A stretch of DNA of 64,000 nt, from assembly GCA_020832345.1 (NCBI GenBank), contig JAFIEY010000006.1, forward strand, positions 1 to 64,000, read 5' to 3'. Positions within the stretch are counted from its first letter, which is position 1, and every line of letters starts with the position of its first letter. The translations under genes and the position numbers were made by a program. Below are positions 7,146 through 62,311 of this stretch, piece after piece. Origin of the DNA: Cryomorphaceae bacterium (GTDB taxonomy: Bacteria; Bacteroidota; Bacteroidia; Flavobacteriales; Schleiferiaceae). The notes under the pieces were generated by a model, which saw nothing but the letters and a program-made list of their open reading frames with translations, had not been told where the DNA came from and searched no databases.

Positions 7146-7289
7146 TGAGTCCACTCCAAAAAGGATGATTTCAATCAAAATCGACGCGGAGGGAATTTTT
7201 GGGCCGGAGCTAACGGTTTGTTAGTGAGGATTGAAAAATCTACCGACAAGGAAGATTTTGGCAGAAAGGGACTTTTTTTAGCAGACTCA
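7146..7289 (-). repeat. TGAGTC repeat copy A (144-bp class)
   Basis: It occupies the 323-bp gap between the divergent DUF1573 and mutM genes. Ends are TGAGTCCACTCC and GCAGACTCA. Compared with the 127-bp class it carries GACGCG and a small stem-loop CTAAC-GGTTT-GTTAG. The arm near 7270-7284 is decayed (TTTTTTTAGC), so pairing of the inner stem is poorer than in other copies. Strand given is the one beginning TGAGTCTGC. Confidence 0.9.
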
Positions 7290-7366
7290 AAATTCATTGG
7301 CACATTTTTTTTCCTACTGGTGTAAACAAAAACATTGTATAGGTGTTTTAATAAAAAATAACAGCT

Positions 7367-8155
7367 ATGCCAGAATTACCAGAAGTAGAAGTGATGCGTA
7401 GGAAAATAGAGACGCACTCTTTGAATAAAGTTTTGCAATCCATCACTGTTCACGATGGAAGAATTGAAAAGGGGATGCCTGCACATTGGCAATCTTTTTT
7501 TGTGAAAAACAATTTGATTGAAACCAGGCGGATTGGAAAGTATCTGTTCCTGCGGTTTCACGATTATTGGCTGCACCTGCATTTTGGGATGACGGGCAGT
7601 GTTGTTTTCACAACTAATCGAGATGAGATCCCACAATATACTCGATTGACCTTACACTTTGATAATGATATTCATTTAAATTTTACTGATCCTCGTACTT
7701 TTGGTAAAATTGATATGGTGTCGAGTGTGGATTCTTTTGCCAACGGAAAAAAATTGGGCAAGGACTTAATGGAAGCCACGGAATCTGATGCCATTAAATT
7801 ATTTTCCAACAAAAAGATTTCACTTAAAGCAATTTTGCTAAAACAAAACATCATTTCCGGGGTGGGCAATTGGCTTGCAGATGAAGCTTTGTTTAGAGCA
7901 AAGTTGCATCCGGCAACGCCCGGAATGGCGCTCACCGAATCACAAATGGTTGCGTTTTTATCTACCATTCAATCGGTTGCTGAGGAAGCAATTGCTGCTG
8001 ACACCCATTACGGAAACTTTCCAAGTCACTTTTTTACTAATTATCGTGTCGAAGACAAACCTTGTCCATCTGATGAATCGGCTAAAATTCAGAAAATGAC
8101 GCTGGGTGGTCGTGCCACGTATTTTTGCCCTAAATGTCAAAAGTTTCCCGGATAA
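7367..8155 (+). CDS. mutM: MutM-like DNA glycosylase (Fpg/Nei family) with altered zinc finger
   Basis: A 262-residue protein opening with PELPEVE, whose Pro2 and Glu3 are the catalytic residues of Fpg enzymes. It also has RRIGKYL with the active-site Lys and a TDPRTFGK loop. These enzymes excise oxidised purines and cut the abasic site. The C-terminal zinc finger is unusual: the first ligand pair reads CPSD instead of CPxC, while the second pair, FCPKC, is intact. Either Asp serves as a ligand or the finger is weakened. It is followed 1 bp later by the CPXCG gene. Confidence 0.88.
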   Translation: MPELPEVEVMRRKIETHSLNKVLQSITVHDGRIEKGMPAHWQSFFVKNNLIETRRIGKYLFLRFHDYWLHLHFGMTGSVVFTTNRDEIPQYTRLTLHFDNDIHLNFTDPRTFGKIDMVSSVDSFANGKKLGKDLMEATESDAIKLFSNKKISLKAILLKQNIISGVGNWLADEALFRAKLHPATPGMALTESQMVAFLSTIQSVAEEAIAADTHYGNFPSHFFTNYRVEDKPCPSDESAKIQKMTLGGRATYFCPKCQKFPG

Positions 8156-8156
8156 A

Positions 8157-8345
8157 ATGCTAATTGAACATCAATATACCTGTCCTTACTGTTTTGAAGC
8201 GTCTGAAATTATGATAGATCCGTCACTTTCCAGACAGGTTTTTATTGAAGATTGTTCAGTTTGTTGCAATCCAATTGAATTCACCATTCACTTGGATGAT
8301 GCGTTAATTGTCACGTATTTGTCTGCGGAATCAATTGAGCAGTAA
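8157..8345 (+). CDS. CPXCG-motif cysteine-rich protein
   Basis: A 62-residue protein with two Cys pairs, CPYC near residue 9 and CSVC near 33, spaced as in the CPXCG family of small putative zinc-binding proteins. Function is unknown. The ATG lies 1 bp after the mutM stop, so the two are likely co-transcribed. Its 3' end overlaps the convergent mnmD gene by 35 bp. Confidence 0.85.
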   Translation: MLIEHQYTCPYCFEASEIMIDPSLSRQVFIEDCSVCCNPIEFTIHLDDALIVTYLSAESIEQ

Positions 8346-9012
8346 AGGTTTTTGTCCCCCGAAGCATTTCCCGTTTCCCAGGTGGCCCCGGGATTTTTTC
8401 CACGGAAAATCCAACGCTTTGCAATCTTCTTTTTACGGCTCCCTGAGCGCAATAGGTCACCCAAATTCCGTTTGCTTTCAGGGCGTCGTAACATTTTTTT
8501 AGCACGGGTTCATCCCATGCTGTTGGGTGATAGCGAGGTGCAAAGGCGTCAAAGAAAATAAGGTCAAAGTGATTTTCGGACAATATTGCATCTTCAAATG
8601 TCACTTGTCTTTTTTCCAGCGTAAACTTTGGATCAATGGAAACAGGTATATCCCATGAAGCATTGTGAATGGCTGAAAATAAATCCCTAGCATGGGGAAA
8701 TTTTAGCAATTCTGGAAAGTTGAGCACTTTCCAAATTTCCTCAGGAAGGATGGTGTTTTCCAGTGTTTGATAATGAATGGCGCGATTTTCCGATTTTGCC
8801 GCAATGGCTGTAAGAAGAACGTTTAGACCAGTACCAAATCCAAATTCTAAAATGTTTATCGATTTTGAATCCATTTGCGCCAAACCCGATTGAAGAAAGA
8901 CGTGTTCTGCTTCTTGAATGGCGCCGTGCTGACTGTGGTAATGCTCTTGGAGTGCTTCGTTCCTCAAGCTGTGACTACCATCAGCTGTTTTGGTTAAAGT
9001 CAGTTGACTCAA
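8311..9012 (-). CDS. mnmD: tRNA (mnm5s2U34)-methyltransferase MnmD
   Basis: A 233-residue protein with a SAM-binding motif LEFGFGTGLN near residues 55-64 and the later block DLIFFDAFAPRYHPTAWD, both diagnostic of the DUF752 methyltransferase domain of MnmC. The FAD oxidase domain of Proteobacterial MnmC is absent, so this is the stand-alone form. It completes mnm5s2U at the tRNA wobble position. It overlaps the cytochrome gene by 4 bp (ATGA). Confidence 0.9.
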   Translation of the reverse strand: MSQLTLTKTADGSHSLRNEALQEHYHSQHGAIQEAEHVFLQSGLAQMDSKSINILEFGFGTGLNVLLTAIAAKSENRAIHYQTLENTILPEEIWKVLNFPELLKFPHARDLFSAIHNASWDIPVSIDPKFTLEKRQVTFEDAILSENHFDLIFFDAFAPRYHPTAWDEPVLKKCYDALKANGIWVTYCAQGAVKRRLQSVGFSVEKIPGPPGKREMLRGTKTFTAQLIPQTNT

Positions 9013-9455
9013 ATCTCTAATTTCTTGATTTTTGGTATCGGGCCATTGCAGTAGATTTTATGACAACTTATGCAAGTTTGAATCGAGGTGTTGTAGGCTT
9101 TTAAACGGTCATCACCTTCAGCTTTTGCCATTTCTTCCAATTGTCGCAAATATTCATGTGCAAGGGGTTCAAAAGCACCATTTGCCAATTCATCCGGACT
9201 AGTTGCATCTGCGGAAAGGATTTGACTAACCCAATCGGGTACGGGGGTAAGCGGCTCACCACTTTCAAGTTGCTGCTTCCATTCCGCGCTTAAATCATGA
9301 ACCTCGTGCATCAGGGCAGCCAACTCGGATTGCTGATACATTTGGGGTGCTTCCTTTGTCTCGGCCTTTTCCTCTTGCTTGGCGGGATTACAGTAGCTTA
9401 AACCATAAGCGCAAATACTGACTCCAAGAACGATAAATATTTTTTTGATATGCAT
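9009..9455 (-). CDS. Cytochrome c-like lipoprotein
   Basis: A 148-residue exported protein with a lipoprotein signal ending near Cys22 and one haem c binding motif CISCH at residues 128-132 near the C-terminus. The preceding helical region suggests a cytochrome c'/c556-like fold with the haem at the C-terminal end, but this is inferred from layout. Probable role is periplasmic electron transfer or a small-molecule sensor. It is translationally coupled to mnmD and 9 bp after the DUF4920 gene. Confidence 0.75.
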   Translation of the reverse strand: MHIKKIFIVLGVSICAYGLSYCNPAKQEEKAETKEAPQMYQQSELAALMHEVHDLSAEWKQQLESGEPLTPVPDWVSQILSADATSPDELANGAFEPLAHEYLRQLEEMAKAEGDDRLKAYNTSIQTCISCHKIYCNGPIPKIKKLEI

Positions 9456-9464
9456 AAGAAAGGA

Positions 9465-9965
9465 TTATTCAAGAATTACCCCATCAGCTAAAAAGGATAC
9501 TTTGACAGTGGGTTCGTTGATGGCATCGATTTCCTCTTGAGATTTTCCGGCATCAAAGGCTTTGTGTTTTAACCATTCTACACTTTGGGTGTCAACTTTG
9601 GCAATACCGTTTACAGTTGCCGTTCTGCCGTCTGCATTAAGTGGAACAAAAAATCCGTAATCTTTAAAACGGACGGTCATGTTTTGCCCATTCCCCAGGT
9701 CTATGTCCATCCAGCAGCCCTTTTTCTTACAAACGCCCAGAATTTCGCCGGTTACCTTTGCCTGTACGCTGTCGTTTTCGGCCAGCATTGCAATGAGGTT
9801 TGATGCGGGTATGGCACCGTCCATGGTCATGGAAGAATCTCCATAAACCTCTAAAGCAATGGTGTCAGTATCGACAATTTCTTCGTCTTTTTCTATTTCT
9901 TTATTGTTTCCACAAGAAACGATTAGTGTGGCAGCTGCAGCCAACAAAAGTGTTTTTAAAGTCAT
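9465..9965 (-). CDS. DUF4920 lipoprotein
   Basis: The start is placed at the Met giving MTLKTLLL, because it yields a clean lipoprotein signal ending at Cys18. The remaining protein has the DUF4920 core, including GVCKKKGCWMDI and a VRFKDYGFFVP strand. DUF4920 proteins are predicted periplasmic beta-barrel-like proteins of unknown function. The CKKKGC pair could form a disulfide or bind metal. It heads an operon with the cytochrome and mnmD and has a good promoter motif just upstream. Confidence 0.85.
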   Translation of the reverse strand: MTLKTLLLAAAATLIVSCGNNKEIEKDEEIVDTDTIALEVYGDSSMTMDGAIPASNLIAMLAENDSVQAKVTGEILGVCKKKGCWMDIDLGNGQNMTVRFKDYGFFVPLNADGRTATVNGIAKVDTQSVEWLKHKAFDAGKSQEEIDAINEPTVKVSFLADGVILE

Positions 9966-9989
9966 ATTGATTTGGTGAAATTTAGTCGG

Positions 9990-9997
9990 CAAATATA
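9990..9997 (-). promoter_or_regulatory. Bacteroidota -7 element ahead of the DUF4920 operon
   Basis: Minus-strand TATATTTG followed by GCC matches TAnnTTTG exactly and lies 24 bp upstream of the chosen DUF4920 ATG. An in-frame Met further upstream (9990-9992) overlaps this motif, which supports the shorter start. Confidence 0.6.
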
Positions 9998-10018
9998 CAT
10001 CGTTTCTACAAAAGGACG

Positions 10019-10525
10019 CTAATTACATGGATTGTCGTAAATAACTCCGGACATCTTGGTGCCATCGGTATCGAAAGTAATCCATTCTCCACACGGGTTT
10101 CTGTCACATCCCAAACAATTGCTAAACATGGCCGAACGCTTTGGCGCTTTCCCGTCGCTGTGAAAGGTCAACTCTTCCTGCAACTGTTTGGTGCGAGCGG
10201 GATCTTCATGATCGAGATTTGTATATTTATAGGTAATGCGTTTGGTCATTTTTCCACCACCATCGTAAAAGAAATGTTCCTCTACGGGTAAACTCAGGTT
10301 GCGAATATTACCAAAACTGCCTTCGTAGCGAACGTTTCCATCTGCATCTATGCGTTTTACGGTTCGGTGAAGAGAATCAGAATACGTACTGATTTCTCGG
10401 AGATTTTCCTTTTCTAAAAAGATGGTATCAGTATAGGAATCAAAGGCTTTGCCCGCTCCGCTTCGGTTACAATCACATGATACAGCTACAATCGAAATGG
10501 CAATTAGGATAAGAAAAATTCTCAT
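10019..10525 (-). CDS. Hypothetical lipoprotein
   Basis: A 168-residue protein with an N-terminal hydrophobic stretch and lipobox ending at Cys17 (VAVSC). The mature part is polar and beta-rich, with a pair of cysteines in NCLGCDRNPCGEW near the C-terminus. The pattern of short segments such as GNVRYEG and KMTKRITYKY recalls antitoxin-like MORN_2 repeats, but weakly. No function is assigned. Confidence 0.7.
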   Translation of the reverse strand: MRIFLILIAISIVAVSCDCNRSGAGKAFDSYTDTIFLEKENLREISTYSDSLHRTVKRIDADGNVRYEGSFGNIRNLSLPVEEHFFYDGGGKMTKRITYKYTNLDHEDPARTKQLQEELTFHSDGKAPKRSAMFSNCLGCDRNPCGEWITFDTDGTKMSGVIYDNPCN

Positions 10526-10791
10526 GGTGGGTAAAATTAAAATATGATCTAAAACTATTGGGTTTCAACAAGGGGTCAAATGTACAAATCAATTTTACCC
10601 GCCGTTCATCGAAAACTAAGGTTTTAACACATTGTAATAGAAATTCATTTCGGTGTTGTTTGGTAACTTGCGCCCGGAAATAATTTGGATAGACCTTGGA
10701 GATGCTTTTTACCAGTTAAAAAGACCAGACCCATTTAACTCTTCATGCGAACACTGATTTAAGCGTAAAAGAATTTAAAACTTACTGACTA
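10526..10791. other. Intergenic region between divergent genes, nothing recognised
   Basis: The 266 bp between the hypothetical lipoprotein and the DUF389 gene must hold both promoters, but no TAnnTTTG motif at a useful distance, no hairpin and no open reading frame with support was found. Confidence 0.5.
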
Positions 10792-12216
10792 ATGAGCGAG
10801 AAAAAATTTGGTTTTATTCCTAAGGTATTGTGGGAGAAGCTGACTTTGTCAATGCACAATCTTTTTGATTTGTCAGAGGACAAAGACGATGCTAAAATGG
10901 TAATGGCGGCAATTGAACGCTCAGTTGAATTTAGGGGAACTAATTTGTGGATTTTAATATTTGCCATTTTGGTTTGCTCGCTGGGTTTAAATGTCAACTC
11001 TACCGCGGTCATTATTGGTGCAATGCTTATTTCACCATTATTAGGTCCGATAATGGGATTGGGGCTGGGTGTGGCTACGTATAATTTTGAATTGGTTAAA
11101 AAAGCGTTTAAAAACTTCGGTATTGCAGTCGGTATATCGGTTTTGGCATCTGCCTTCTATTTTCTCATCAGTCCGCTCAGTGAAGCACAATCTGAATTAC
11201 TTGCGCGTACTACGCCAAATATCTACGATGTGTTTGTGGCCTTATTTGGTGGTTTAGCGGGTATTATTGCATTTACCAGGAAAGATAAAAACAGTACAGT
11301 AATTCCCGGTGTAGCCATTGCAACTGCGCTAATGCCACCGCTTTGTACTGCGGGGTACGGATTGGCTACCCTACAGTTTTCCTATTTTTTTGGTGCATTT
11401 TACCTGTTCTTTATCAACAGTGTTTTTATTTCTTTGGCGTCATTTCTCATTTTGCGGTTTTTAAAATTTCCGGTCAAAACTTTTGTCAATCCACAACGCG
11501 CCAAACAAGTTCGGCAAACCATTATCTTTTTGGTTACCATCACTGTTTTGCCGAGTATTTACCTCGGGGTTGGCATTATAAAGCGGTCGTACTTTGAGAG
11601 TAACGCCAACGCATTTTTAAACAAGGAAATGGATTTTCCCAGCGCACAGATTGTCACCAAAGAAATAAATTACGACAGCAAAAATCCGGTGATTAAAGTT
11701 ACCTACGTAGGCGCATTTATCGACAATGAGATGATTGAATTTGCCAAGAGTAAATTGGGGCAATATCGTTTGGAGAATGTGCAATTGCTTGTTAGACAGG
11801 GTTTAAAGCAAGATCAGTTTAATCCAGAAAGTATTAAATCTGGAGTTTTAGAGGATTTGGTTATTCGGTCGGAACGGGAAATAGAAAAGCTAAAAGCTGA
11901 GTTGGAACGTAAAGAACAGGAAATATCAGTGATGGGTCATGAGATGAAAATTTCTCGAGATGTTCAGCAGGAAGTTACAAGTATGTATCCGGCCATAAAG
12001 CGATTTGGATTGAGTAAGAGTTTGGTATATGAACAAAACGTAACCACGCCGGACACCATTTTCCTTGTCCGCATAGATTTATTGGAGGAAATGTCTGAAC
12101 GTGAAAAAGAACGACTAAAAAGTTTTCTGACGGCAAGACTTAAGCGTCATGAGGTTGAATTGGTTTTTAAACCTTTGTACAGACCAAATCCCAGTCGAGA
12201 ATGGGATCAACAATAA
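10792..12216 (+). CDS. DUF389 membrane protein
   Basis: A 474-residue protein. A soluble N-terminus is followed by several membrane helices (about residues 40-290) containing GAMLISPLLGPIMGLGLG, the signature of DUF389. The C-terminal third is soluble, with a predicted coiled coil around residues 350-390. Function is unknown. It overlaps the following exonuclease III gene by 16 bp. Confidence 0.85.
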   Translation: MSEKKFGFIPKVLWEKLTLSMHNLFDLSEDKDDAKMVMAAIERSVEFRGTNLWILIFAILVCSLGLNVNSTAVIIGAMLISPLLGPIMGLGLGVATYNFELVKKAFKNFGIAVGISVLASAFYFLISPLSEAQSELLARTTPNIYDVFVALFGGLAGIIAFTRKDKNSTVIPGVAIATALMPPLCTAGYGLATLQFSYFFGAFYLFFINSVFISLASFLILRFLKFPVKTFVNPQRAKQVRQTIIFLVTITVLPSIYLGVGIIKRSYFESNANAFLNKEMDFPSAQIVTKEINYDSKNPVIKVTYVGAFIDNEMIEFAKSKLGQYRLENVQLLVRQGLKQDQFNPESIKSGVLEDLVIRSEREIEKLKAELERKEQEISVMGHEMKISRDVQQEVTSMYPAIKRFGLSKSLVYEQNVTTPDTIFLVRIDLLEEMSEREKERLKSFLTARLKRHEVELVFKPLYRPNPSREWDQQ

Positions 12217-12971
12217 TTTCCTATAACGTAAATGGAATTCGTGCGGCCATTCGAAAAGGGCTGTTAGAGTGGCTTAAAGCTGCTCAACCCGATATTTTGT
12301 GTTTGCAAGAAATCAAAGCGGAAGCTTCGCAAATTCCCTTCGAAGCATTTGATGCTTTGGGTTACAATTGTCAGTGGTTTTCTGCCAAAAAAAAGGGTTA
12401 TAGTGGCGTGGCCATATTATCTAAAACCAAACCACTTTCGGCAGAGTCGGGTGTCAATATTCCTTATATAGATGAAGAAGGACGGATTTTGGTACATTAT
12501 TACACTGAATTTACCCTAATAAACGCATATTTTCCTTCGGGAAGTAATCCGGATCGACAAACTGTGAAAATGCGATTTTTGGAAGATTTTGAAAAAGAAA
12601 TACCCCGTTGGGAGCAAAAGGGAAAGCCGCTTATTATGCTCGGGGATTTTAATATTTGTCATCGTGCCATCGATATTCATGATCCCATTAGAAATGCCAA
12701 TACACCAGGTTTTTTACACGAAGAACGTGAATGGATAAGCGAATTAATCAACCGAGGATATGTCGATGCTTTTCGCGTTTTTCATCCCGATGAACCACAT
12801 CAGTATTCGTGGTGGAGTTATCGGGCAGGTGCCAGAAAAAACAATAAGGGATGGAGGATTGATTACGCCATAGTGAGTGAGTCATTGCGTGGGAAATTGA
12901 CCCGATGTGTACTCCTCAATCAGACAAAACATTCAGATCATTGTCCGGTTTTGCTGGAATTGGAAATATGA
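12201..12971 (+). CDS. xth: Exodeoxyribonuclease III / AP endonuclease
   Basis: A 256-residue protein of the exonuclease-endonuclease-phosphatase fold with all catalytic motifs: NVNGIRA at 9-15, LQEIK with Glu37, GDFN with Asp149 and Asn151, and SDHCPV near the C-terminus. It cleaves abasic sites in base excision repair, the step after a MutM-type glycosylase. The ATG lies inside the end of the DUF389 gene. Confidence 0.95.
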   Translation: MGSTIISYNVNGIRAAIRKGLLEWLKAAQPDILCLQEIKAEASQIPFEAFDALGYNCQWFSAKKKGYSGVAILSKTKPLSAESGVNIPYIDEEGRILVHYYTEFTLINAYFPSGSNPDRQTVKMRFLEDFEKEIPRWEQKGKPLIMLGDFNICHRAIDIHDPIRNANTPGFLHEEREWISELINRGYVDAFRVFHPDEPHQYSWWSYRAGARKNNKGWRIDYAIVSESLRGKLTRCVLLNQTKHSDHCPVLLELEI

Positions 12972-13065
12972 ATGTTCCGTAAAAACCCATGGTTAATCGT
13001 TTTGTGGTATAACTTCATGGCGTTATTCTCTTATCAGTGGATAAAAATATTGGTACTTTCTTTGC

Positions 13066-13073
13066 TATCTTTG
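13066..13073 (+). promoter_or_regulatory. Bacteroidota -7 element ahead of the thioredoxin-like gene
   Basis: TATCTTTG lies 24 bp upstream of the ATG at 13098. No convincing -33 box at 19-20 bp. Confidence 0.5.
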
Positions 13074-13097
13074 TAGTTTGATTAAAAACCACAATTC

Positions 13098-13628: not shown

Positions 13629-13718
13629 TTTTTTTGGTAAAAAATTAATCTACATTTACAAACCATATTGCAATACACATGTTGTAAACATGACGTATGG
13701 GAAACCATTTTTTACCTG

Positions 13719-13726
13719 TACTTTTG
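13719..13726 (+). promoter_or_regulatory. Bacteroidota -7 element ahead of the bacilliredoxin gene
   Basis: TACTTTTG lies 28 bp upstream of the ATG at 13755. Confidence 0.5.
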
Positions 13727-13754
13727 TGGTTTCAAAATTTAAAATAAAATCACC

Positions 13755-14168: not shown

Positions 14169-14238
14169 GTATTACAAGTCAACCCAAACGGGAACTTAAC
14201 TATATTTTGAGATTTTTTAAACCATAATAAACGGTCCG

Positions 14239-21312: not shown

Positions 21313-21331
21313 CCATTGAACATTTCAATGG
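21313..21331 (+). other. Perfect hairpin directly before repeat copy B
   Basis: CCATTGAA-CAT-TTCAATGG is a perfect 8-bp stem with a 3-base loop, ending one base before repeat copy B. It has no T run, so it is not a classical terminator. It lies 56 bp after the inositol monophosphatase stop. Confidence 0.6.
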
Positions 21332-21458
21332 AGAGTCTGCTCTAAAAAGTCCCTTTCTGCCAAAAACTTCCTTGTCGATAGACTTTTGAATCCTCACTTG
21401 CTCCGGTTCAAAAACTCCCTAGATTTTGATTGAAATCATCCTTTTTAGAGTGGACTCA
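21332..21458 (+). repeat. TGAGTC repeat copy B (127-bp class)
   Basis: A full copy in the 280-bp convergent gap between the inositol monophosphatase and thioredoxin genes. Ends read AGAGTCTGCTCTAAAAAG and CTTTTTAGAGTGGACTCA. Its sequence is nearly that of copies D and F. The frame open in those copies is closed here by a TAG. Confidence 0.92.
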
Positions 21459-21536
21459 ATGGATTCTTATTTGCTCTAAGTAAGTGATAGGATAATCTCC
21501 TGAGCCGGATTAAATCACGAAAAATATGGTGGGTGT

Positions 21537-22761: not shown

Positions 22762-22788
22762 GGTATGATATTTAGAAAGGTTAATTTT

Positions 22789-22916
22789 TGAGTCTGCTCT
22801 AAAAAAGTCCCTTTCTGCCAAAATCTTTCTTGTCGATAGACTTTTGAATCCTCACTTGCTCCGGTTCAAAAATCCCCTCGATTTTGATTGAAATCACCCT
22901 TTTTAAAGTGGACTCA
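22789..22916 (+). repeat. TGAGTC repeat copy C (127-bp class)
   Basis: A full copy of 128 bp in the 453-bp gap between the divergent ArsC-like and GGGP synthase genes. One extra A in the left arm (AAAAAAGTCC). Ends read TGAGTCTGCTCT and GTGGACTCA. It begins 27 bp upstream of the ArsC-like start. Confidence 0.92.
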
Positions 22917-23059
22917 TTTTTTTAGCTTAAATCCCATTACTTACAATTGCTAAAATTAGAAAAAAAAATTGAATCATCAAAAATTGATGTGATTTTTTTC
23001 GGGAATGGTTTTGGGTGGGGTTTAGATTGTGGAAGTTATTTGGGGGATTAGGATTAAGA

Positions 23060-25247: not shown

Positions 25248-25374
25248 TGAGTCTGCTCTAAAAAGTCCCTTTCTGCCAAAATCTTCCTTGTCGATAGACT
25301 TTTGAATTTTCACTTGCTCCGGTTCAAAAATCCCCTCGATTTTGATTGAAATCATCCTTTTTAGAGTGGACTCA
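25248..25374 (+). repeat. TGAGTC repeat copy D (127-bp class)
   Basis: A full copy in the 402-bp convergent gap, 50 bp from the GAPDH stop and behind the terminator-like hairpin. Ends read TGAGTCTGCTCTAAAAAG and CTTTTTAGAGTGGACTCA, the cleanest pair of arms in the window. On the minus strand one frame is open right through it. Confidence 0.95.
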
Positions 25375-30093: not shown

Positions 30094-30139
30094 TGAGTCT
30101 GATCTAAATAGTCCCTTTCTGCCAAAATCTTCCTTGTCG
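30094..30139 (+). repeat. TGAGTC repeat copy E (truncated)
   Basis: Only the first 46 bp of the element remain (TGAGTCTGATCTAAATAG through CTTCCTTGTCG); the sequence then departs from the consensus. Two arm changes show decay. It lies 102 bp after the esterase stop. Confidence 0.8.
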
Positions 30140-52809: not shown

Positions 52810-52837
52810 GGTTTCTGGTGTGAAATTTGCTGCATAA

Positions 52838-55276
52838 ATGGCTTTTAAATCAAGCTACCAAATGCACAGGCGGGCGTTGTTTTTCCTCATTTTTATCGGG
52901 GCTTTCTATCGGGTTTCCTCTCAAGATATTCAGGTAATGGACGCTGAAACCAAAGCGCCATTAGAGTTGGTTACCATTTTTAATAAATCGACTAAGGCCG
53001 TTGCTTTTACTGATTTCTATGGCAAGGCATCTGCAGAACCCTTTGTGGATGCAGAATTGATTAATTTCAGAATCATTGGTTATAAGGCGCAAACGATGTC
53101 TTATCAAAAACTCAAGTCCCAGGATTTTGTGGTTTACATGCGCAAATCAAACTTATCACTGACGCAAATTGATGTTTCTGCTATTCGTTGGCGTCAGGCA
53201 TCAAATAACCTCCCGGCAAAGCAGTCCGCCCTTTCCGCGAAAGAAATTGCCTTTCAAAACCCACAAACCGCAGCCGATGTGCTCGGAGCTTCCGGGGAGG
53301 TGTTTATCCAAAAGAGTCAGCAGGGCGGAGGCAGCCCGATGATTAGAGGTTTCTCCGCCAATCGTTTGCTGCTCAGTGTGGACGGCGTGCGTATGAATAC
53401 CGCAATTTTCCGAAGTGGAAATGTACAAAACGTAATTTCCCTCGACCCCTTTACCATCAGTCAAACGGAAATCTTATTCGGCCCCGGGTCGGTGGTTTTT
53501 GGTAGTGATGCCCTGGGTGGTGTGATGCAATTCATTACGAAAAAACCCCAAACCAACCACAGCGATAAAACCGAGGTTAATGGAAATTACGCAGGTCGAT
53601 ATGCAACGGCCAACAATGAGGTAACCAATCATATTGACGTAAATATTGGTGGGAAGAACTGGGCGGCGCTCACGAGCATTACCTTTACCGAATTTGGTGA
53701 CTTAAGGATGGGGTCGAGAGGGCCTGAGGAAAATTATCTGCGGACTTTTAAAGTTGAAAGAATTGATGACCAGGATATAATGACTGCACCATCAGATCCA
53801 CTGCGGCAAAGTCCAACCGGATACCAGCAGCTCAATTTTATGCAAAAGGTTTTTTATTCGACAAAAAATTGGGATTTTAATTACGCTTTCCATTATTCAG
53901 GAACCTCGGAATATGACCGTTACGATCGATTGATTCAAAAATCCGATGGTTTGCCGAGAAGTGCTGAATGGCGGTATGGGCCTCAAATTTGGACCATGAA
54001 TTATTTAGAGGCGAGGAATTATTACAGCAATCGTTTTTACGACGTTGTTAGTTTGCGTTTTGCCCATCAGTTTTTTGAAGAGAGTAGAATTGATCGTGGA
54101 TTTAACCGCAATACACGGAGAACTCGAATTGAGAAGGTCAATGCCATTTCCGGAAATGTGGATTTTTATAAATCATTGGGTAGGGGCAACAAAATAAATT
54201 ATGGAGTGGAGTGGGTGTTAAACGATGTGCAGTCGGAAGGTTTTGGCGAGAACATTATGAGTGGTGAAAGGTCTGCCGTACTTACCCGTTATCCCCAATC
54301 TACTTGGAATTCAATGGCGATTTTTGGTGTTTACGAACGAAGACTAACCAGGGAACTCATCTTGCAAACGGGTGTACGATACAATCACTTTGATATCAAT
54401 TCAGATTTTTCGCAAAATGCCGCTTTCTTTCCCCTCGATTTTCAGGAAGCAAATATCAATACCGGTGCGATTTCAGGAAGTGCTGGTTTGGTGTATAATC
54501 CACGGAGAAAGCTTTTTATTCGGGCAAATCTTTCCTCCGGATTTCGGGCGCCAAATGTAGATGACATCGGGAAAGTTTTTGATTCCGAACCTGATGCGGT
54601 CGTTGTTCCAAATCCCAATCTAAGACCCGAGTATGCCTATAATGCTGAGTGGGGCATTGCTGCCATCGTGGGTAATAATTTTAAATTTGACTTGAGTATT
54701 TTCGCTACTTATCTCGACAACGCCATGGTTCGCCGGGATTTTTCCTTGGGTGGTAGTGATAGTATTTTATACGATGGCGAACCGGCAAGGGTGCAGGCCA
54801 TTCAAAATGCTTCTTATGCTATTATTTATGGAGCTCAAACGTACATGGAATATCGATTTGATAAATTTTGGTCCATCAACAATACATTCAATTTCCAACG
54901 CGGTAATGAAGAAACCGATGATGGGCAACTTAGTGCAACCCGACATGCGGCGCCGTGGTTTGGAATTGCACGACTAGAATACCAGAAAGCGAAGTTTACT
55001 TTCCAGTTTTATTCTGCATATAGCGGCACCGTTTCCCATAGTCGAATGCCCATTGAAGAAGTTGGTAAGGCGTTTATGTATGCCGTGGATGAAAATGGAA
55101 ATCCGTATTCACCAGGTTGGATGACTTTGAACTTAAAAGGTATGTATAAAATGAAAAACGGCGTTTCTGTTATGATGGGTTTTGAAAATATTACCAATCA
55201 GCGGTATCGTCCGTTTGCTTCGGGGTTGGTGGCGCCGGGGCGAAATTTTATTATATCCATTAGAGCTTCAATATAA
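52838..55276 (+). CDS. TonB-dependent receptor
   Basis: An 812-residue receptor: signal peptide, a short regulatory-like domain (about 30-100), a plug with QQGGGSPMIRGFSANRLLLSVDGVRMN and a beta-barrel closing with a TonB C-terminal block (FENITNQRYRPFASG). The plug sequence resembles haem/haemoglobin-type receptors, but the ligand is not proven. Its stop codon shares its last base with repeat copy F. Confidence 0.92.
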   Translation: MAFKSSYQMHRRALFFLIFIGAFYRVSSQDIQVMDAETKAPLELVTIFNKSTKAVAFTDFYGKASAEPFVDAELINFRIIGYKAQTMSYQKLKSQDFVVYMRKSNLSLTQIDVSAIRWRQASNNLPAKQSALSAKEIAFQNPQTAADVLGASGEVFIQKSQQGGGSPMIRGFSANRLLLSVDGVRMNTAIFRSGNVQNVISLDPFTISQTEILFGPGSVVFGSDALGGVMQFITKKPQTNHSDKTEVNGNYAGRYATANNEVTNHIDVNIGGKNWAALTSITFTEFGDLRMGSRGPEENYLRTFKVERIDDQDIMTAPSDPLRQSPTGYQQLNFMQKVFYSTKNWDFNYAFHYSGTSEYDRYDRLIQKSDGLPRSAEWRYGPQIWTMNYLEARNYYSNRFYDVVSLRFAHQFFEESRIDRGFNRNTRRTRIEKVNAISGNVDFYKSLGRGNKINYGVEWVLNDVQSEGFGENIMSGERSAVLTRYPQSTWNSMAIFGVYERRLTRELILQTGVRYNHFDINSDFSQNAAFFPLDFQEANINTGAISGSAGLVYNPRRKLFIRANLSSGFRAPNVDDIGKVFDSEPDAVVVPNPNLRPEYAYNAEWGIAAIVGNNFKFDLSIFATYLDNAMVRRDFSLGGSDSILYDGEPARVQAIQNASYAIIYGAQTYMEYRFDKFWSINNTFNFQRGNEETDDGQLSATRHAAPWFGIARLEYQKAKFTFQFYSAYSGTVSHSRMPIEEVGKAFMYAVDENGNPYSPGWMTLNLKGMYKMKNGVSVMMGFENITNQRYRPFASGLVAPGRNFIISIRASI

Positions 55277-55402
55277 GAGTCTGCTCTAAAAAGTCCCTTT
55301 CTGACAAAATCTTCCTTGTCGATAGACTTTTGAATCCTAACTTGCTCCGGTTCAAAAATCCCCTCGATTTTGATTGAAATCATCTTTTTTAGAGTGGACT
55401 CA
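55276..55402 (+). repeat. TGAGTC repeat copy F (127-bp class)
   Basis: A full copy that begins at the last base of the TonB receptor stop codon. Ends read AGAGTCTGCTCTAAAAAG and GAGTGGACTCA. On the minus strand one frame is open throughout, as in copy D. A bidirectional terminator follows 8 bp later. Confidence 0.94.
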
Positions 55403-55403
55403 T

Positions 55404-55438
55404 ATAAAAAAAGCCTCCAAAATTTGGAGGCTTTTTTT
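55404..55438. terminator. Bidirectional terminator between TonB receptor and pckA
   Basis: Stem AAGCCTCC/GGAGGCTT (55411-55418 with 55426-55433) flanked by A and T runs, between the convergent genes and between repeat copies F and G. Confidence 0.88.
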
Positions 55439-55456
55439 CAAAAATAATATCAATTT

Positions 55457-55508
55457 TAAGTCCACTCCAAAAAGGATGATTTTTGCAGAAAGTTTTGGAG
55501 CAGACTCA
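55457..55508 (-). repeat. TGAGTC repeat copy G (52-bp hairpin copy)
   Basis: An internally deleted copy: about 26 bp from each end joined together. It forms a nearly uninterrupted hairpin of 16 pairs, three of them G-T. It ends 4 bp before the pckA stop and faces copy F across the terminator. Confidence 0.85.
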
Positions 55509-55512
55509 ATTT

Positions 55513-57123
55513 TTAATGGGCGGTAGTTGCCGCCTTAGCTTTAGGCGCACCGTCTAGTATTTCGCGACTGGCTTGAGATGCAAACTTCTCGAAGTTTTTA
55601 TTAAATTTCGCGGCAAGCTCATCCGCGGTGCGGTCATAGTTATCTTTATTTGCCCAGGTGTTTCTGGGGTTCAATACCTCGTCGGGAACACTGGGGCAAG
55701 ATTGTGGTACCATAACGCCAAAAACATTATGGGCTTCGAATGATACATTGTCCAGTTCACCATTGAGTACAGCTGTAATCATGGCGCGGGTATATTTCAG
55801 TTTCATTCTGCTTCCTGTGCCGTAAGGGCCACCTGACCAACCGGTGTTAACCAGCCAAACATTTGTGCCTACATCCTTCATTTTACGACTGAGCATCTCG
55901 GCGTAGCGGGTAGGGTGGAGTGGCATAAACGGTGCGCCAAAACAGGCGGAGAATGCGGTAACGGGTTCGGTAATTCCGGCCTCAGTTCCCGCAACTTTTG
56001 CTGTGTATCCAGAGATAAAGTGGAAAGCTGCTTGTCCGGGTGTAAGCTTAGAAATAGGGGGAATGACACCGTACGCATCACACGTAAGGAAGAAAACATT
56101 TTTCGGATTTGCTCCGATGGATGGGACTTGAATGTTTTCAATGTGGTGGATTGGATAACTGACCCTGGTGTTTTCGGTAATGGTTGAGTCCTGATAATCT
56201 ACTTCATTCGTACCATCTTTAAACACGATGTTTTCCAAAATGGCACCGGGCTTTATGGCTCGGTAAATATCGGGTTCTTTTTCCTCGCTGAGGTCAATGA
56301 CTTTAGCGTAGCAACCACCTTCAAAGTTGAAGATTTCGTTGTTGGGTGTCCAACCGTGTTCATCATCTCCAATAAGTCTGCGATTGGGGTCTGCGGAAAG
56401 GGTTGTTTTTCCTGTACCAGAAAGGCCAAAGAACAATGCGGTATCGCCATCTTTTCCGATGTTGGCGGAGCAGTGCATCGGAAGGCTATTTTTTTCTGTA
56501 GGTAAAATAAAATTCAATGCAGAAAACACACCTTTTTTGATTTCACCGGTATATCCTGTGCCACCAATGATGATGGTTTTTTTGGTAAAACTCAAAATGG
56601 CAAAGTTGTGCTGGCGGGTGCCGTCAACTGCCGGGTCTGCTTTAAATCCGGGCGCATTGATGATTGTCCAATCGTTTTGGAAGTTTTCCAACTCCACGCC
56701 TTCGGGACGAAGGAACATATTGTATGCAAATTGATTGCTCCATGGATATTCGTTGATTACCCGAACGTTGAGTCGGTATTCAGGATGCGAGCAAACAAAA
56801 GCATCGCGAACGTAGATTTCCTTTTCAGATAAATAATTGACCAGTTTAGCCTGTAGGCTGTCAAATTTATCGGCGGGAAAGCCAACGTTTATGTCACCCC
56901 ACCAAACTTGATCTTTGGTCAATTCGTCTTCGACAATGAAGCGGTCTTTTGGTGATCTACCGGTGAATTCACCGGTGTGGACGGTAATGGCTCCAGTACT
57001 TGTAAACTCGGCCATGCCTTTTTCGACCGCGATATTGGAAAGTTGTTCGGGACTGAGGTTCCAGTGAGCAGTCGCGTTCTTTATTCCCAATGTTTCCAGA
57101 TAACTTTTCTGTGATTCGTTCAT
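55513..57123 (-). CDS. pckA: Phosphoenolpyruvate carboxykinase (ATP)
   Basis: A 536-residue ATP-type enzyme with P-loop GLSGTGKTTLSADP near 240, HCSANIG before it and the metal-binding DDEHGW after it. It converts oxaloacetate to phosphoenolpyruvate, the entry step of gluconeogenesis. Length is normal. It has a strong promoter motif and ends at repeat copy G and a bidirectional terminator. Confidence 0.97.
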   Translation of the reverse strand: MNESQKSYLETLGIKNATAHWNLSPEQLSNIAVEKGMAEFTSTGAITVHTGEFTGRSPKDRFIVEDELTKDQVWWGDINVGFPADKFDSLQAKLVNYLSEKEIYVRDAFVCSHPEYRLNVRVINEYPWSNQFAYNMFLRPEGVELENFQNDWTIINAPGFKADPAVDGTRQHNFAILSFTKKTIIIGGTGYTGEIKKGVFSALNFILPTEKNSLPMHCSANIGKDGDTALFFGLSGTGKTTLSADPNRRLIGDDEHGWTPNNEIFNFEGGCYAKVIDLSEEKEPDIYRAIKPGAILENIVFKDGTNEVDYQDSTITENTRVSYPIHHIENIQVPSIGANPKNVFFLTCDAYGVIPPISKLTPGQAAFHFISGYTAKVAGTEAGITEPVTAFSACFGAPFMPLHPTRYAEMLSRKMKDVGTNVWLVNTGWSGGPYGTGSRMKLKYTRAMITAVLNGELDNVSFEAHNVFGVMVPQSCPSVPDEVLNPRNTWANKDNYDRTADELAAKFNKNFEKFASQASREILDGAPKAKAATTAH

Positions 57124-57152
57124 GAGATTTTTAATTGGTTACGAACATGGCG

Positions 57153-57160
57153 CAAATGTA
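57153..57160 (-). promoter_or_regulatory. Bacteroidota -7 element ahead of pckA
   Basis: Minus-strand TACATTTG followed by CGCC, an exact match to TAnnTTTG, 29 bp upstream of the ATG. Confidence 0.6.
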
Positions 57161-57203
57161 GGGATTGAAATTTAATGGAAGGGTAACTTTGGTCAACTAA
57201 TCG

Positions 57204-57593
57204 TCAATTTTTTACCCATGTTTTCCACAGCCATACCAACCACCCCGCAATGAACACCAATCCGCCTATTGGTGTCACCGGACCCAGCCACCTGACAGAC
57301 AGTCCCCAATGTGCCCCTAAAATAAGACCATAGATGGAGCCGGAGAACATGAGTATGCCTGTGGTGAACAGCCAAATGGGTAAGCTCATATTGCGTTCAA
57401 AAACTTTTCCGAAAAGGCCTACAGCAACAAGTGCAAAGGCGTGATACATTTGATACCTGACTGCCGTGAGGAATGATACTATAGCGTCATCCGGCAATAT
57501 ATTTTCCAGTGCATGAGCGCCCATCGCCCCCAAAATTATGGAGGTGCCCCCGAAAATTATGCCCAATCTGATTCCTGTTATGTTTGCGTTCAT
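57204..57593 (-). CDS. DUF423 membrane protein
   Basis: A 129-residue protein with four membrane helices and the family pattern GAMGAHAL near residue 22, AVRYQMYHAFAL near 45 and a closing TPIGGLVFIAGW. Function is unknown. It overlaps the stop of the upstream DUF4476-like gene by 4 bp. Confidence 0.9.
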   Translation of the reverse strand: MNANITGIRLGIIFGGTSIILGAMGAHALENILPDDAIVSFLTAVRYQMYHAFALVAVGLFGKVFERNMSLPIWLFTTGILMFSGSIYGLILGAHWGLSVRWLGPVTPIGGLVFIAGWLVWLWKTWVKN

Positions 57594-58342
57594 TTGGTCG
57601 AAAATATGTCAATAAATTGTTGTCGAAAATGTGGATATGCAAAGTGTTTGTTCGCGAGAATTTCTTTTTTTGGCCAAACTTCTTCTGCGCAATGCTCTCC
57701 TAAGGTTCTGCCGAGTTCTAATCTGGACGGGTCATAACGCAAAATTCCCATGGCCTTGTCAATGTCTTCAAAATCACAATGGGATTTTTGAGAAAAATAT
57801 TCGCGAAATACCCGAACGCGGTCGAATTCAAATTCCGCTTCGGCAGCTGCTGCCCATACATCGATAATTTCCGTGTCCTCATTTTCGGTTTCCGCCAATT
57901 CTTCAATAACTTTTCCCGTTCGCCCGGATATTGAATCAATATTTAAGTCACTTGGGCTTTCGGTTTCCTTGAGGGCTTGAAATTCAAGACTGTCCGGTAT
58001 ATTGTTAGGCGCTTGGACAAATTCATTTGAATAGGTCACTTTGGTGGCTTGGGTTAGTTTTTGCGTACCCCGATACCAAATACCAATATCATCATTATTA
58101 CCTTCACCTATATAATAATGTAAAACCGATGCACCATCCGGCAGCCTTTTTCTAAGTTTTTTACCATAAAAGGACAATTCAATTACTGCATTGGAATCCG
58201 GAACATCGGTGATTTCTATTTGTTGATGGGGAGCATTGTTATACAAAAATGTTTTTCCTTCTGTACATTCCACAAAAACAGTTCGCTGCGCAAACACAGC
58301 GATTCCGAGTAGAAGAAGGGTAAATGTTGATAAGATTTTCAC
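57590..58342 (-). CDS. Exported DUF4476-like protein
   Basis: A 250-residue protein with a signal peptide (LLLLGIAVFAQ) and a C-terminal helical region (about 165-250) with FDRVRVFREYF and YDPSRLELGRTLGEH, which resembles DUF4476. The start is GTG at 58342; no ATG fits the signal peptide. A TACTTTTG motif lies only 5 bp upstream, so the mRNA may have almost no leader. Confidence 0.65.
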   Translation of the reverse strand: MKILSTFTLLLLGIAVFAQRTVFVECTEGKTFLYNNAPHQQIEITDVPDSNAVIELSFYGKKLRKRLPDGASVLHYYIGEGNNDDIGIWYRGTQKLTQATKVTYSNEFVQAPNNIPDSLEFQALKETESPSDLNIDSISGRTGKVIEELAETENEDTEIIDVWAAAAEAEFEFDRVRVFREYFSQKSHCDFEDIDKAMGILRYDPSRLELGRTLGEHCAEEVWPKKEILANKHFAYPHFRQQFIDIFSTK

Positions 58343-58347
58343 AAAGG

Positions 58348-58355
58348 CAAAAGTA
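58348..58355 (-). promoter_or_regulatory. -7 element next to the DUF4476-like start
   Basis: Minus-strand TACTTTTG followed by CC, 5 bp before the GTG start. If used, transcription would begin at or near the start codon. Confidence 0.45.
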
Positions 58356-58384
58356 ATATGTTCGGGGTTCCCGTGCTTGGTTTT

Positions 58385-58392
58385 TACCTTCG
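58385..58392 (+). promoter_or_regulatory. Possible -7 element ahead of the saccharopine dehydrogenase-family gene
   Basis: TACCTTCG, one mismatch from TAnnTTTG, 21 bp upstream of the ATG at 58414. Confidence 0.4.
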
Positions 58393-58413
58393 CTTTTCCA
58401 AATATTTTACATT

Positions 58414-59760
58414 ATGTCCAAAACCATTGTCCTATTCGGAGCAGGAAGATCAGCTTCGAGATTGATTCAATATATTCAAGAAAAGTCGATTGAGAAAAAT
58501 TGGCGGTTGATTATCGCTGATCGTGATGAGGAATTACTCGCTCGTAAACAAGGGGGGCATCGGGGTACAGAGACGGTTTTTTTTCAACTTCAGGACGAAA
58601 AGTTGCGCGGGGAATTAGTCGCCAAGGCCGATTTGGTTATTTCGATGATGCCAGCCCATTTGCATATTACCATTGCGGAAGATTGTGTTCGACTGGGGAA
58701 AAATATGCTCACCGCTTCCTATGTTTCAAAGGAAATGGAAAACCTTCATGAGGCAGCGGTGGACAAGGGACTCATCCTACTCAACGAAACTGGAGTAGAT
58801 CCCGGAATAGATCATCTTTCCGCCATGAAAATGTTGGATGAGTTGCGCCAAAAGGGTGCGGAAATTACCTGTTTTGAATCCTTTACCGGAGGGCTTCCCG
58901 CGCCGGGCGTAACCGATAATCCGTGGCAATATTTCTTTAGTTGGAATCCCCGGAATGTGGTGCTTGCAGGTTCTGGTGGTGCTGTGAAATTTCGTCAGGA
59001 GGGAAAGTATAAATACATTCCTTACCACCAGCTTTTTCGTCGAACCGAAATTGTCAATATAGACGGTCACGGTCGATTTGAAGGTTATCCCAACCGCGAT
59101 TCTCTGCGCTATCGAAAAACCTACGGACTGGACACTGTGCCTACTATTTTCCGCGGTACCTTTCGCCGTCCCGGCTTTTGCAAGGCATGGGATGTTTTTG
59201 TCAAACTCGGCATGACCGATGACTCTTATGTATTAAAAAATGACGGCAGCATGACCCACCGGGAATTTGTCAATTTCTTTTTGGCCTACCATCCCGGCGA
59301 TAGTGTAGAACTCAAATTGATGCACTATCTCAACATTCCACAGGATTCGGACATCATGGAAAAACTGGAGTGGATAGAATTGTTTTCCAACGACCCGGTG
59401 GAATTGGAGGAAGGCACGCCAGCGCAAATCCTCGAATATATTTTGATGAAAAAATGGGCCATGAAACCCAATGAGAGGGATATGATCGTCATGTTTCACA
59501 AAATTGGTTATATGTTGGAAGGTGAAAATAAAATGATTCACGCTTCTATGGTGTATGAAGGGAAATCAAGGGACAATACAGCCATGTCGGATACCGTGGG
59601 ATTGCCACTGGGCATAGCGGCGGAATTGATGTTGGATGGAAAAGTGCAACAAAAAGGCGTATGTTTGCCCATCACCCCCGATATCTACCTTCCAATGTTG
59701 GAAAAACTAAAAGAATTCGGGATTGGGTTTCAGGAAAAGGAGGTGCCCTACCAATCATAA
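58414..59760 (+). CDS. Saccharopine dehydrogenase-family protein
   Basis: A 448-residue protein with an N-terminal Rossmann motif (LFGAGRSASRL), LNETGVDPGIDHLSA and SFTGGLPAPG, as in saccharopine reductases. In Bacteroidota such proteins may act in lysine degradation or synthesis of a related opine; the substrate is not shown here. It stands alone and ends before a terminator. Confidence 0.88.
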   Translation: MSKTIVLFGAGRSASRLIQYIQEKSIEKNWRLIIADRDEELLARKQGGHRGTETVFFQLQDEKLRGELVAKADLVISMMPAHLHITIAEDCVRLGKNMLTASYVSKEMENLHEAAVDKGLILLNETGVDPGIDHLSAMKMLDELRQKGAEITCFESFTGGLPAPGVTDNPWQYFFSWNPRNVVLAGSGGAVKFRQEGKYKYIPYHQLFRRTEIVNIDGHGRFEGYPNRDSLRYRKTYGLDTVPTIFRGTFRRPGFCKAWDVFVKLGMTDDSYVLKNDGSMTHREFVNFFLAYHPGDSVELKLMHYLNIPQDSDIMEKLEWIELFSNDPVELEEGTPAQILEYILMKKWAMKPNERDMIVMFHKIGYMLEGENKMIHASMVYEGKSRDNTAMSDTVGLPLGIAAELMLDGKVQQKGVCLPITPDIYLPMLEKLKEFGIGFQEKEVPYQS

Positions 59761-59787
59761 AAATTGTAGTCACCACTCATTTTAAGA

Positions 59788-59838
59788 AAAAAATAGACTT
59801 ATTCCCGATAAAATTTTTGGGATAGGTCTATTTTTTTT
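59788..59838 (+). terminator. Terminator behind the saccharopine dehydrogenase-family gene
   Basis: AAATAGAC and TATTCCC pair with GGGATA and GTCTATTT, with small bulges, around an AT-rich loop, followed by a long T run. Confidence 0.75.
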
Positions 59839-59941
59839 GCGAATACTAGAAGCAATTTCAATTATAAATGATTAAAAAACAAAGCATATAGATTGTAATA
59901 GATTTTTTTTTCTCGAAAATAAGTTTATTCTTACTTATTTA

Positions 59942-59949
59942 TATATTTG
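59942..59949 (+). promoter_or_regulatory. Bacteroidota -7 element ahead of the lipoprotein pair
   Basis: TATATTTG followed by GT, 28 bp upstream of the ATG at 59978. Confidence 0.5.
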
Positions 59950-59977
59950 GTGAGTTCAAAAACCAAAAGCAACAATA

Positions 59978-61573
59978 ATGAAAAATATATTTATGGGGAT
60001 TTTTAGTCTCTTAGTTTTTCTTACATCTTGCGTCACCAAAAATAACAAAGTCCTCTATCGAGATTTAAATCAGATTATTCACGGTACTGGTGATGGAGCA
60101 TATCAGGGGCAGTATATCAAACTTCATTTAAAAAATGGAGATCTTTATATTTTAAATGACAATTGGAAAGTCAACAATCACACGGATGAAGTAGAAGGTG
60201 TTGGTAAACACTTTGACCGAAACCGAAAATTGGTAGGTCAGGGTAAATTTAACGTTCCTGTAAATCAAATTGTATTATACGAAACCAACGACATTTCAGG
60301 TGATGGTACAAGTGCAAGAATTGCAGCACTTGGGATAATAACTTTAATTAATGCTTATGTTACGGCGATGTGCTTAACCAACCCCAAAGCCTGCTTTGGT
60401 TCCTGTCCTACCTTTTATTTGGAAGACATCGACAATGTTCATTATTCAGATGCAGAAGGGTTTTCAAATGCCATTTCGCCAACCCTCGCTTATACAGATG
60501 TGGATGCCCTAAATAATCCACCTATTTCCGATCACGAATTTACCCTGACCATGAAAAATGAGGCCTTGGAAACACACTGTGTCAATCAGGCGAATATTTT
60601 AGTTTTTCCGAGAAATCCGGGTCAGCGAGTGTATCATACCCGTCAAGATGAGTTTTACCTTTCCGATGCAGAATACCCCTTAACCCTTGCAATAGCTGAG
60701 GAAGGAGATGTGACTGAATTGATGCGCCATGCAGATAAGACAGAAAGAACCAGTTTGGCAGACGAAAATGATATGCGCACCCGTGAAGAAATCATCCTTA
60801 CTTTTGATCATTTACCCAATCATGATGATTGGGGACTGGTCGTTCACTTTCGCCAAACCTTAATGACCACTTACCTTATTTATAGTGCACTCGGATACAT
60901 GGGCGATGAGGTCAGTGATTTTTTTGCAGAACTCGAAACCAATCCCAAACTCAAAAAACGGGTAAAAACAAGTATTAAGGATGAGTTGGGAGATTTGGAC
61001 GTTTATGTATGGGATGAAAATTCTGAAAAATGGATTTTTCAAGGTGGGTTTTACGAAACAGGACCAATTGCCATCAATCGTCAGTTGATGAAATTTAAAA
61101 ACACCAATCATTCTGGTAGTTTAAAAGTAAAATTAGAATTTGCCAAAGGTCTTTGGCGGATAGATTATGTATCTCTGGCAAAAATTATTGACCGAGTTGA
61201 GCCGCTCGAATTGCAACCTTCTTGGGTTGAAAATCAAGGAATAAAAGATAATGCTGCTTTGGAATTAATAACGGATACCGCAAAACTTTTAATCTCACTT
61301 CCCGGTGACAAATTTGTCTTTGGTTATACACTACCTGAAACCCATGATGACTACGAAATATTTTTAGCATCCGGAGGATATTACCTCGAATGGATGCGCG
61401 AATCGTGGTTGGAGGAAAAAGATTTGAGCAAACTCCGAAAAATGTTTTTGCGTCCGGGAAAATACTTATTAGACGAAACCCCGGCGTATAAAGAATACGA
61501 GCGTGACATGGAACAGCAATTTTGGGATTCTAGAATTGATACGGATCATTTTTCCATCAAAAAGGTAAATTGA
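59978..61573 (+). CDS. Hypothetical lipoprotein with CFGSCPTFY motif
   Basis: A 531-residue protein with a lipoprotein signal ending at Cys18 (LTSC). The first 90 residues are beta-rich with a strand pattern like the next gene's. A short hydrophobic stretch near 115-130 leads into KACFGSCPTFYLED, whose two cysteines look conserved in type. The remainder is a large domain I do not recognise. Function is unknown; an outer-membrane-associated role is likely from the signal. Confidence 0.75.
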   Translation: MKNIFMGIFSLLVFLTSCVTKNNKVLYRDLNQIIHGTGDGAYQGQYIKLHLKNGDLYILNDNWKVNNHTDEVEGVGKHFDRNRKLVGQGKFNVPVNQIVLYETNDISGDGTSARIAALGIITLINAYVTAMCLTNPKACFGSCPTFYLEDIDNVHYSDAEGFSNAISPTLAYTDVDALNNPPISDHEFTLTMKNEALETHCVNQANILVFPRNPGQRVYHTRQDEFYLSDAEYPLTLAIAEEGDVTELMRHADKTERTSLADENDMRTREEIILTFDHLPNHDDWGLVVHFRQTLMTTYLIYSALGYMGDEVSDFFAELETNPKLKKRVKTSIKDELGDLDVYVWDENSEKWIFQGGFYETGPIAINRQLMKFKNTNHSGSLKVKLEFAKGLWRIDYVSLAKIIDRVEPLELQPSWVENQGIKDNAALELITDTAKLLISLPGDKFVFGYTLPETHDDYEIFLASGGYYLEWMRESWLEEKDLSKLRKMFLRPGKYLLDETPAYKEYERDMEQQFWDSRIDTDHFSIKKVN

Positions 61574-61630
61574 TGCTAAAAATGCTAATTTGTAATTGTT
61601 TGATTTTAATAACCAAATAACACAATAATC

Positions 61631-62140
61631 ATGAAAAAGATATTGCCATTTTTATTCCTTGGGTTTTTTTGTAGCTGTGCTAAATACAGTTTTTTACCCA
61701 AGCCACATGACTTGGGAGAAACCCCTTATGGGGCTTTCATTGAGATATTTACTTTTGAGCATGGCTCTTTTCGGGGAGAGATTTTGGCCATTGATACAAA
61801 TGGGATATTTGTATATGACCATCGTTTGGGCGATGAAAAGAATTCCGTATTTGTTTATAAAAAAAACATTCGAAGGTATAAGGTTCGTAAAGTTAAGCCA
61901 TTGTTGTGGCAAATTGCCTATCCGGTGCTTACTGGCTTTCCCATTTCCCACGGCTTTTATGCGCTTTTAACACTCCCTTTTAACTATATTTATTATTCGA
62001 TTTTTTTGGGGGTTGAAGAAACACAATATACCATGAATAATAAAAATATGGAATTTAAGGATCTTCAATTTTTTGCCAGATTTCCAGGAGGAATACCCGA
62101 TGGTTTTTTTGGGGTGGAACTGTCGGATGATTATTTTTAG
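61631..62140 (+). CDS. Hypothetical lipoprotein, partner of the preceding gene
   Basis: A 169-residue protein with a lipoprotein-type signal (FLGFFCSC). Its opening (GAFIEIFTFEHGSFRGEILAI) parallels the beta-rich start of the preceding protein (GQYIKLHLKNGDLYIL). A hydrophobic segment lies near 105-120. It lies 57 bp after the larger gene and likely shares its transcript. Function is unknown. Confidence 0.65.
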   Translation: MKKILPFLFLGFFCSCAKYSFLPKPHDLGETPYGAFIEIFTFEHGSFRGEILAIDTNGIFVYDHRLGDEKNSVFVYKKNIRRYKVRKVKPLLWQIAYPVLTGFPISHGFYALLTLPFNYIYYSIFLGVEETQYTMNNKNMEFKDLQFFARFPGGIPDGFFGVELSDDYF

Positions 62141-62167
62141 AACGATATAAAGTGACTGTATGAAAAG

Positions 62168-62311
62168 TGAGTCTGCTCCAAAAAGTTCTTTATTGTCAAA
62201 ATCTTCCTTGTCAGTAGCTTTTTGAAGCCTCACTAACAAACCGTTAGCTCCGGCCCAAAAATTCCCTCCGCGTCGATTTTGATTAAAATCATCCTTTTTG
62301 GAGTGAACTCA
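62168..62311 (+). repeat. TGAGTC repeat copy H (144-bp class)
   Basis: A full copy, the same length as copy A, 27 bp after the hypothetical lipoprotein. Ends read TGAGTCTGCTCCAAAAAG and CTTTTTGGAGTGAACTCA. It carries the CTAAC/GTTAG stem-loop of the 144-bp class. It fills much of the 383-bp gap before the ABC-F gene. Confidence 0.93.

Follow-up and report, generated by a model that had tools for sequence, protein, structure and literature searches.

The repeats dispersed through the window, by which we mean the whole stretch of 64,000 nucleotides that was analysed here, are very probably a family of MITEs (non-autonomous DNA transposons). They were non-coding and mostly 57 to 144 bp long, and they occurred dispersed and in high copy number with conserved terminal inverted repeats. 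The sequence-only reading had suggested MITEs whose mover lies outside the window, which agrees well with short non-coding units that have inverted ends, 6-bp target duplications, hundreds of copies and nested insertions.

All eight repeats claimed for the window were recovered at their positions, in the forms that had been described: four of 127 to 128 bp, two of 144 bp, one truncated and one internally deleted (52 bp) (Table 1). The ends had been given as 18-bp repeats of the form TGAGTC...GACTCA. The inverted repeats are real, but the repeat proper is the 17-bp GAGTC...GACTC (GAGTCYRCTCYAAAAAG), and 2 copies start with AGAGTC because the outer T and A belong to the target duplication, as its inner edges, rather than to the repeat. 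The copies had also been described as intergenic throughout, which held for seven of them, whereas the copy at 22789 overlapped by 32 bp with the 5' end of a predicted ORF that starts with TTG. The stop codon TAA of the gene for a TonB-dependent receptor (52838-55276) formed the end of the left duplication of the copy at 55276. It was also noted that at 55403-55457, between 2 MITE copies and 2 convergent genes, a T run follows a short hairpin (AAAAAAAGCCTCCAAAATTTGGAGGCTTTTTTT), and this is likely an intrinsic terminator.

Table 1. Members of the repeat family and their target duplications in the window, and sites of a second repeat
Feature	Position	Strand	Remarks
144-bp MITE copy	7146..7289	-	inverted repeats 7147-7163 and 7272-7288
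127-bp MITE copy	21332..21458	+	inverted repeats 21333-21349 and 21441-21457
Target duplication AATGGA, 6 bp	left 21327..21332, right 21458-21463		exact, at the 21332 copy
128-bp MITE copy	22789..22916	+	one base above the 127-bp class
Target duplication ATTTTT, 6 bp	left 22784..22789, right 22916-22921		exact, at the 22789 copy
127-bp MITE copy	25248..25374	+	flanks AAAATT/AAGATT, 5/6 matching
Truncated MITE, left-end fragment	30094..30139	+
127-bp MITE copy	55276..55402	+	inserted at the TonB-dependent receptor stop codon
Target duplication ATATAA, 6 bp	left 55271..55276, right 55402-55407		exact, at the 55276 copy
52-bp copy of the 57-bp class, internally deleted	55457..55508	-	exact duplication, AATTTT at 55452-55457 and 55508-55513
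144-bp MITE copy	62168..62311	+	inverted repeats 62169-62185 and 62294-62310
Repeat of ~220-390 bp, sites	L090 13.2-15.3 kb; L202 6.6, 10.1, 13.3 kb; L117 0.3-0.5 kb; L190 8.4-8.6 kb; L128 11.4 kb; L141 1.2 kb

The 17-bp end pattern occurred 886 times with at most one mismatch in the whole 4.03-Mb genome and the reversed control pattern not once, so the repeats in the window are not due to chance. Many further copies with conserved ends, which had been put forward as support for a mobile family, were thus found in the genome. We examined the window and 120 other stretches of the genome, in total 1.49 Mb or 37% of the genome, which contained 199 elements complete at both ends. With a profile search, which also counted fragments, there were 243 matches, corresponding to 1.87% of the sampled sequence. 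The first 20 stretches had been picked because they held copies, while the other 100 were taken in contig order. The latter contained 121 elements in about 1.05 Mb, from which a fair estimate for the whole genome is about 450 to 550 elements. The draft assembly consists of 260 contigs, many of which end inside a MITE copy, showing that the copies break the assembly.

The elements belonged to discrete size classes of 57, 86, 127, 133, 138, and 144 bp, with the outer T and A counted. According to the class consensus sequences, the 138-bp class differs from the 144-bp class by the loss of 6 bp (CGCGTC), the 133-bp class by the absence of 11 bp at the tip of the hairpin, and the 127-bp class by the absence of both, while the 57-bp and 86-bp classes represent bigger internal deletions. 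The smaller classes may have arisen by deletions within the palindrome, some of them being amplified afterwards. The median divergence from the class consensus was 2.4% for the 127-bp class, 6.3% for the 144-bp class and 7.0% for the 138-bp class; the 127-bp class is young and the 144-bp and 138-bp classes are older on average.

An exact 6-bp direct repeat was identified directly outside GAGTC...GACTC in 95 of 194 copies, as compared to 3.1 in shuffled flank pairings, and the statement that there was no obvious target duplication was therefore wrong. No excess over shuffled pairings was observed for direct repeats of 4, 8, 9, or 10 bp. The target consensus was AnnnnT, with A in the first position in 95% and T in the last position in 88%, in a context that was A+T-rich and roughly palindromic. 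The duplication was exact at four of the eight copies in the window, and a fifth copy matched at five of six positions (Table 1). The 6-mers flanking the copy at 7146 were ATGATT and AAAATT, so that a duplication is not recognisable any more, and those flanking the copy at 62168 were AAAAGT and AATTAT. In the 144-bp class, the divergence from the consensus was 3.9% for copies with an exact duplication and 9.5% for those without, that is, the younger copies have kept the duplication, as expected if it decays with time.

Insertions of one element into another were also identified. At L118:1380-1521, one element was nested in another with ATGATT on both sides, and the uninterrupted element has ATGATT once at this position. 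In L030, L138, and L192, 2 copies were separated by one single 6-bp spacer, and in L138 all three 6-mers were AATTTT, as if the second copy had inserted into the duplication left by the first. Judging from the duplication, the dispersal would be due to transposition by a DDE-type enzyme. Such a transposase, supplied in trans, would bind the 17-bp ends and cut the target with a 6-bp stagger, whereupon the element is inserted. Selection would then purge insertions within genes, and the copies that remain would be intergenic, with an excess between convergent genes.

The positions of the copies relative to genes bear on the question of whether the repeats might instead be structured RNAs, as had also been suggested, or bidirectional transcription terminators kept for their function, with dispersal being secondary. 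Only 14 of the 199 elements overlapped with a predicted gene by at least 20 bp. The gaps between convergent genes, as called by a simple codon-usage script instead of a standard gene finder, contained 44 copies, as compared to 25 expected from the gap length (p = 1e-4), and the median distance was 50 bp to the 3' ends and 134 bp to the 5' ends of genes. A terminator effect could give such an excess, but so could purifying selection against insertions into promoters and operons, and the copies between tandem genes were without orientation preference (42 with and 46 against the genes). The whole element also folds as one long hairpin on either strand (z -4.8 to -7.9), which was counted in favor of a functional RNA, but this fold follows from the palindromic build of the element. 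In an alignment of 67 distinct copies of the 144-bp class, drawn from four genomes, compensatory changes were common at only 2 pairs, both in the terminal repeats (columns 11/133 and 12/132), whereas in the inner stems most pairs were broken or had changed on a single side. The covariation score was reached by 177 of 500 shuffles. With no match to Rfam in the window except for two tRNAs, the suggestion of RNA-coding repeats was left unsupported and we consider a conserved RNA or terminator function very improbable.

Even less credible is a family of REP-like or ERIC-like palindromes, for which a TnpA-REP (Y1) transposase would be the mover and no target duplication would be left. The elements are intergenic palindromes in hundreds of copies, and the length commonly quoted for ERIC is 127 bp, which is near the 127-bp class and was counted in favor of this explanation. 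However, single-strand transposition by Y1 enzymes is not known to make such a target duplication, whereas a clear 6-bp duplication is present here, and the paired inverted ends are strongly conserved.

To return to the MITEs, copies were identified by DNA similarity in 2 of the 4 congeners and in one genome of another genus among 60 relatives. The latter was the Schleiferiaceae MAG PBR18_bin01, in which the copies were 73% to 76% identical to the 127-bp query. The carriers in the public collection were Flavobacteriales DLM2.Bin87, Cryomorphaceae PBR18_bin05, and Schleiferiaceae PBR18_bin01, and the project names may point to Canadian soda-lake mats and a photobioreactor, which would place the carriers in a single habitat. 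A search with the exact ends identified no further clear carriers in 88 genomes of the family and 398 of the order. One copy in the carrier genome G003 (L217:4332-4473) was about one or two bases from young 144-bp copies, and both the element size and the 6-bp duplication were kept in the copies of this genome as well as in those of the other genus.

The exact-end search of 396 genomes across the phylum gave 20 matches, spread over nine genomes from other classes. Of these 20 anchors, 8 had a partner end no more than 250 bp away together with an exact 6-bp repeat, as compared to 8 of 6000 random anchors. The interiors of the elements in the other classes were unlike those described here, and several of them fold as hairpins; what is common to all is therefore the ends and the 6-bp rule, and not the interior. 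The simplest reading of these similarities would be that one transposase lineage is behind the same ends across classes. Our more far-reaching proposal is tentative and rather doubtful: the GAGTCYRCTCTAAAAAG ends and the 6-bp AnnnnT duplication may be the signature of an as yet uncatalogued transposase lineage that would mobilise unrelated MITE families in several classes and would have amplified one such family to about 500 copies in this genome. A search for the transposase can start directly from the exact ends, the target rule and the spread of the ends across the phylum. In one of the genomes of other classes, an ORF similar to the N-terminal part of an IS630-type transposase (L224 259-708) was located about 0.7 kb from a MITE-like element. 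It was judged to be unrelated, since IS630 duplicates TA.

No autonomous element with these ends was identified in the 37% of the genome that was sampled. The search for ends with the duplication returned 67 known elements, none of them autonomous, and unrelated start motifs, used as a control, returned none; a relaxed search of up to 3.2 kb returned nothing beyond copies already known, interrupted copies and a double insertion. A presumed long form at L090/L202 was actually a MITE fragment beside another repeat, and end-like sites in L065 and L179 were remnants without a transposase. The transposases with PF01609 and PF00665 domains that were examined, which NCBIfam placed in ISAs1, IS1634, IS4, IS481, IS3, and IS21, did not have these ends. 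An origin from IS1634 was rejected, as the three IS1634-family transposases in the genome have other ends (CCTGTTTTGTGCG, TTAACCCAACTTGGC, TTAACCCACATTGCAGC). No matches to PF13751, PF01610, PF13586, or PF13612, the last of which we take to be the domain typical of IS982, were obtained in the four carrier genomes. The shortest contig seen was 2510 bp, and as none of the contigs seen was below 2.5 kb, the draft may lack a short contig of a multi-copy IS. In the plasmid collection, the 127-bp copy had no match and a 30-bp end query gave only short matches at the chance level. The viral contigs contained no match to the 20-mer pattern and four exact 17-mer matches, three of which lacked a partner end, while the fourth, a 2.3-kb candidate at L249, contained ORFs that were not transposase-like. 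The transposase behind the family is possibly uncatalogued. Two other elements were noted in passing: an IS1634-family element in L052 flanked by a direct repeat of about 44 bp (GTTGATGTGAGTCTTCTGCTAAACTCCGCTACCCCCACCATTTT), which may be an unusually long target duplication, and a visibly GC-rich contig with an IS4-family transposase (L053, G000:C239), possibly a contamination of the draft genome.

No paper or named family with these end sequences was found in open-access full text, in agreement with the sequence-only reading, and the family is an undescribed MITE family of a known kind. The BrickBuilt and MITEPgRS elements of Porphyromonas gingivalis, also in the Bacteroidota, are likewise non-coding and intergenic with terminal repeats that start with GAG (GAGACCTTCGCA, GAGACTGTTGCA), but they have other ends, tandem repeats, 19 BrickBuilt copies and duplications of variable length, and the matching full-length elements belong to the IS5 family (PMC4596501). 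In contrast, the family described here has GAGTCYRCTCYAAAAAG ends, a constant 6-bp duplication and no parent that could be found. The ends begin with GAG as in the P. gingivalis IS5 elements (PMC4596501), but no match to PF13586 was obtained, and among the PF01609 matches none had these ends or was assigned to the IS5 type by NCBIfam. MITECca01 of Cardinium cOegib (Bacteroidota), which was compared by kind and not by sequence, is similarly amplified and mostly intergenic, with 169 copies covering 3.5% of the chromosome, but has an IS982-family parent in its own genome (PMC9769881), whereas PF13612 gave no match here. ERIC of Enterobacteriaceae and Vibrionaceae, compared by kind and by the absent Rfam match only, is also an intergenic MITE, but it comes from another phylum, and the duplication is 6 bp in the family described here; with 30 to 711 ERIC copies depending on the host (PMC10969869), the approximately 500 copies and 1.9% of the sampled sequence make this a heavily MITE-loaded bacterial genome. 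The Chunjie MITE of Geobacter uraniireducens, compared by description and not by sequence, similarly has copies of full length and others shortened internally (178-235 bp), along with numerous partial ones, but occurs in another host with about 38 copies with ends and 57 partial copies (PMC10969869).

Finally, a different repeat of about 220 to 390 bp with palindromic parts (AAAATTTAGGTGTTGGCTTACAAATGCC...GGGGCGCTTCGTTTACTCGGATGAATGTT) was observed to recur between unrelated genes (Table 1), in a manner that is perhaps like an integron cassette array, and three of its copies were adjoined by a MITE left-end fragment.
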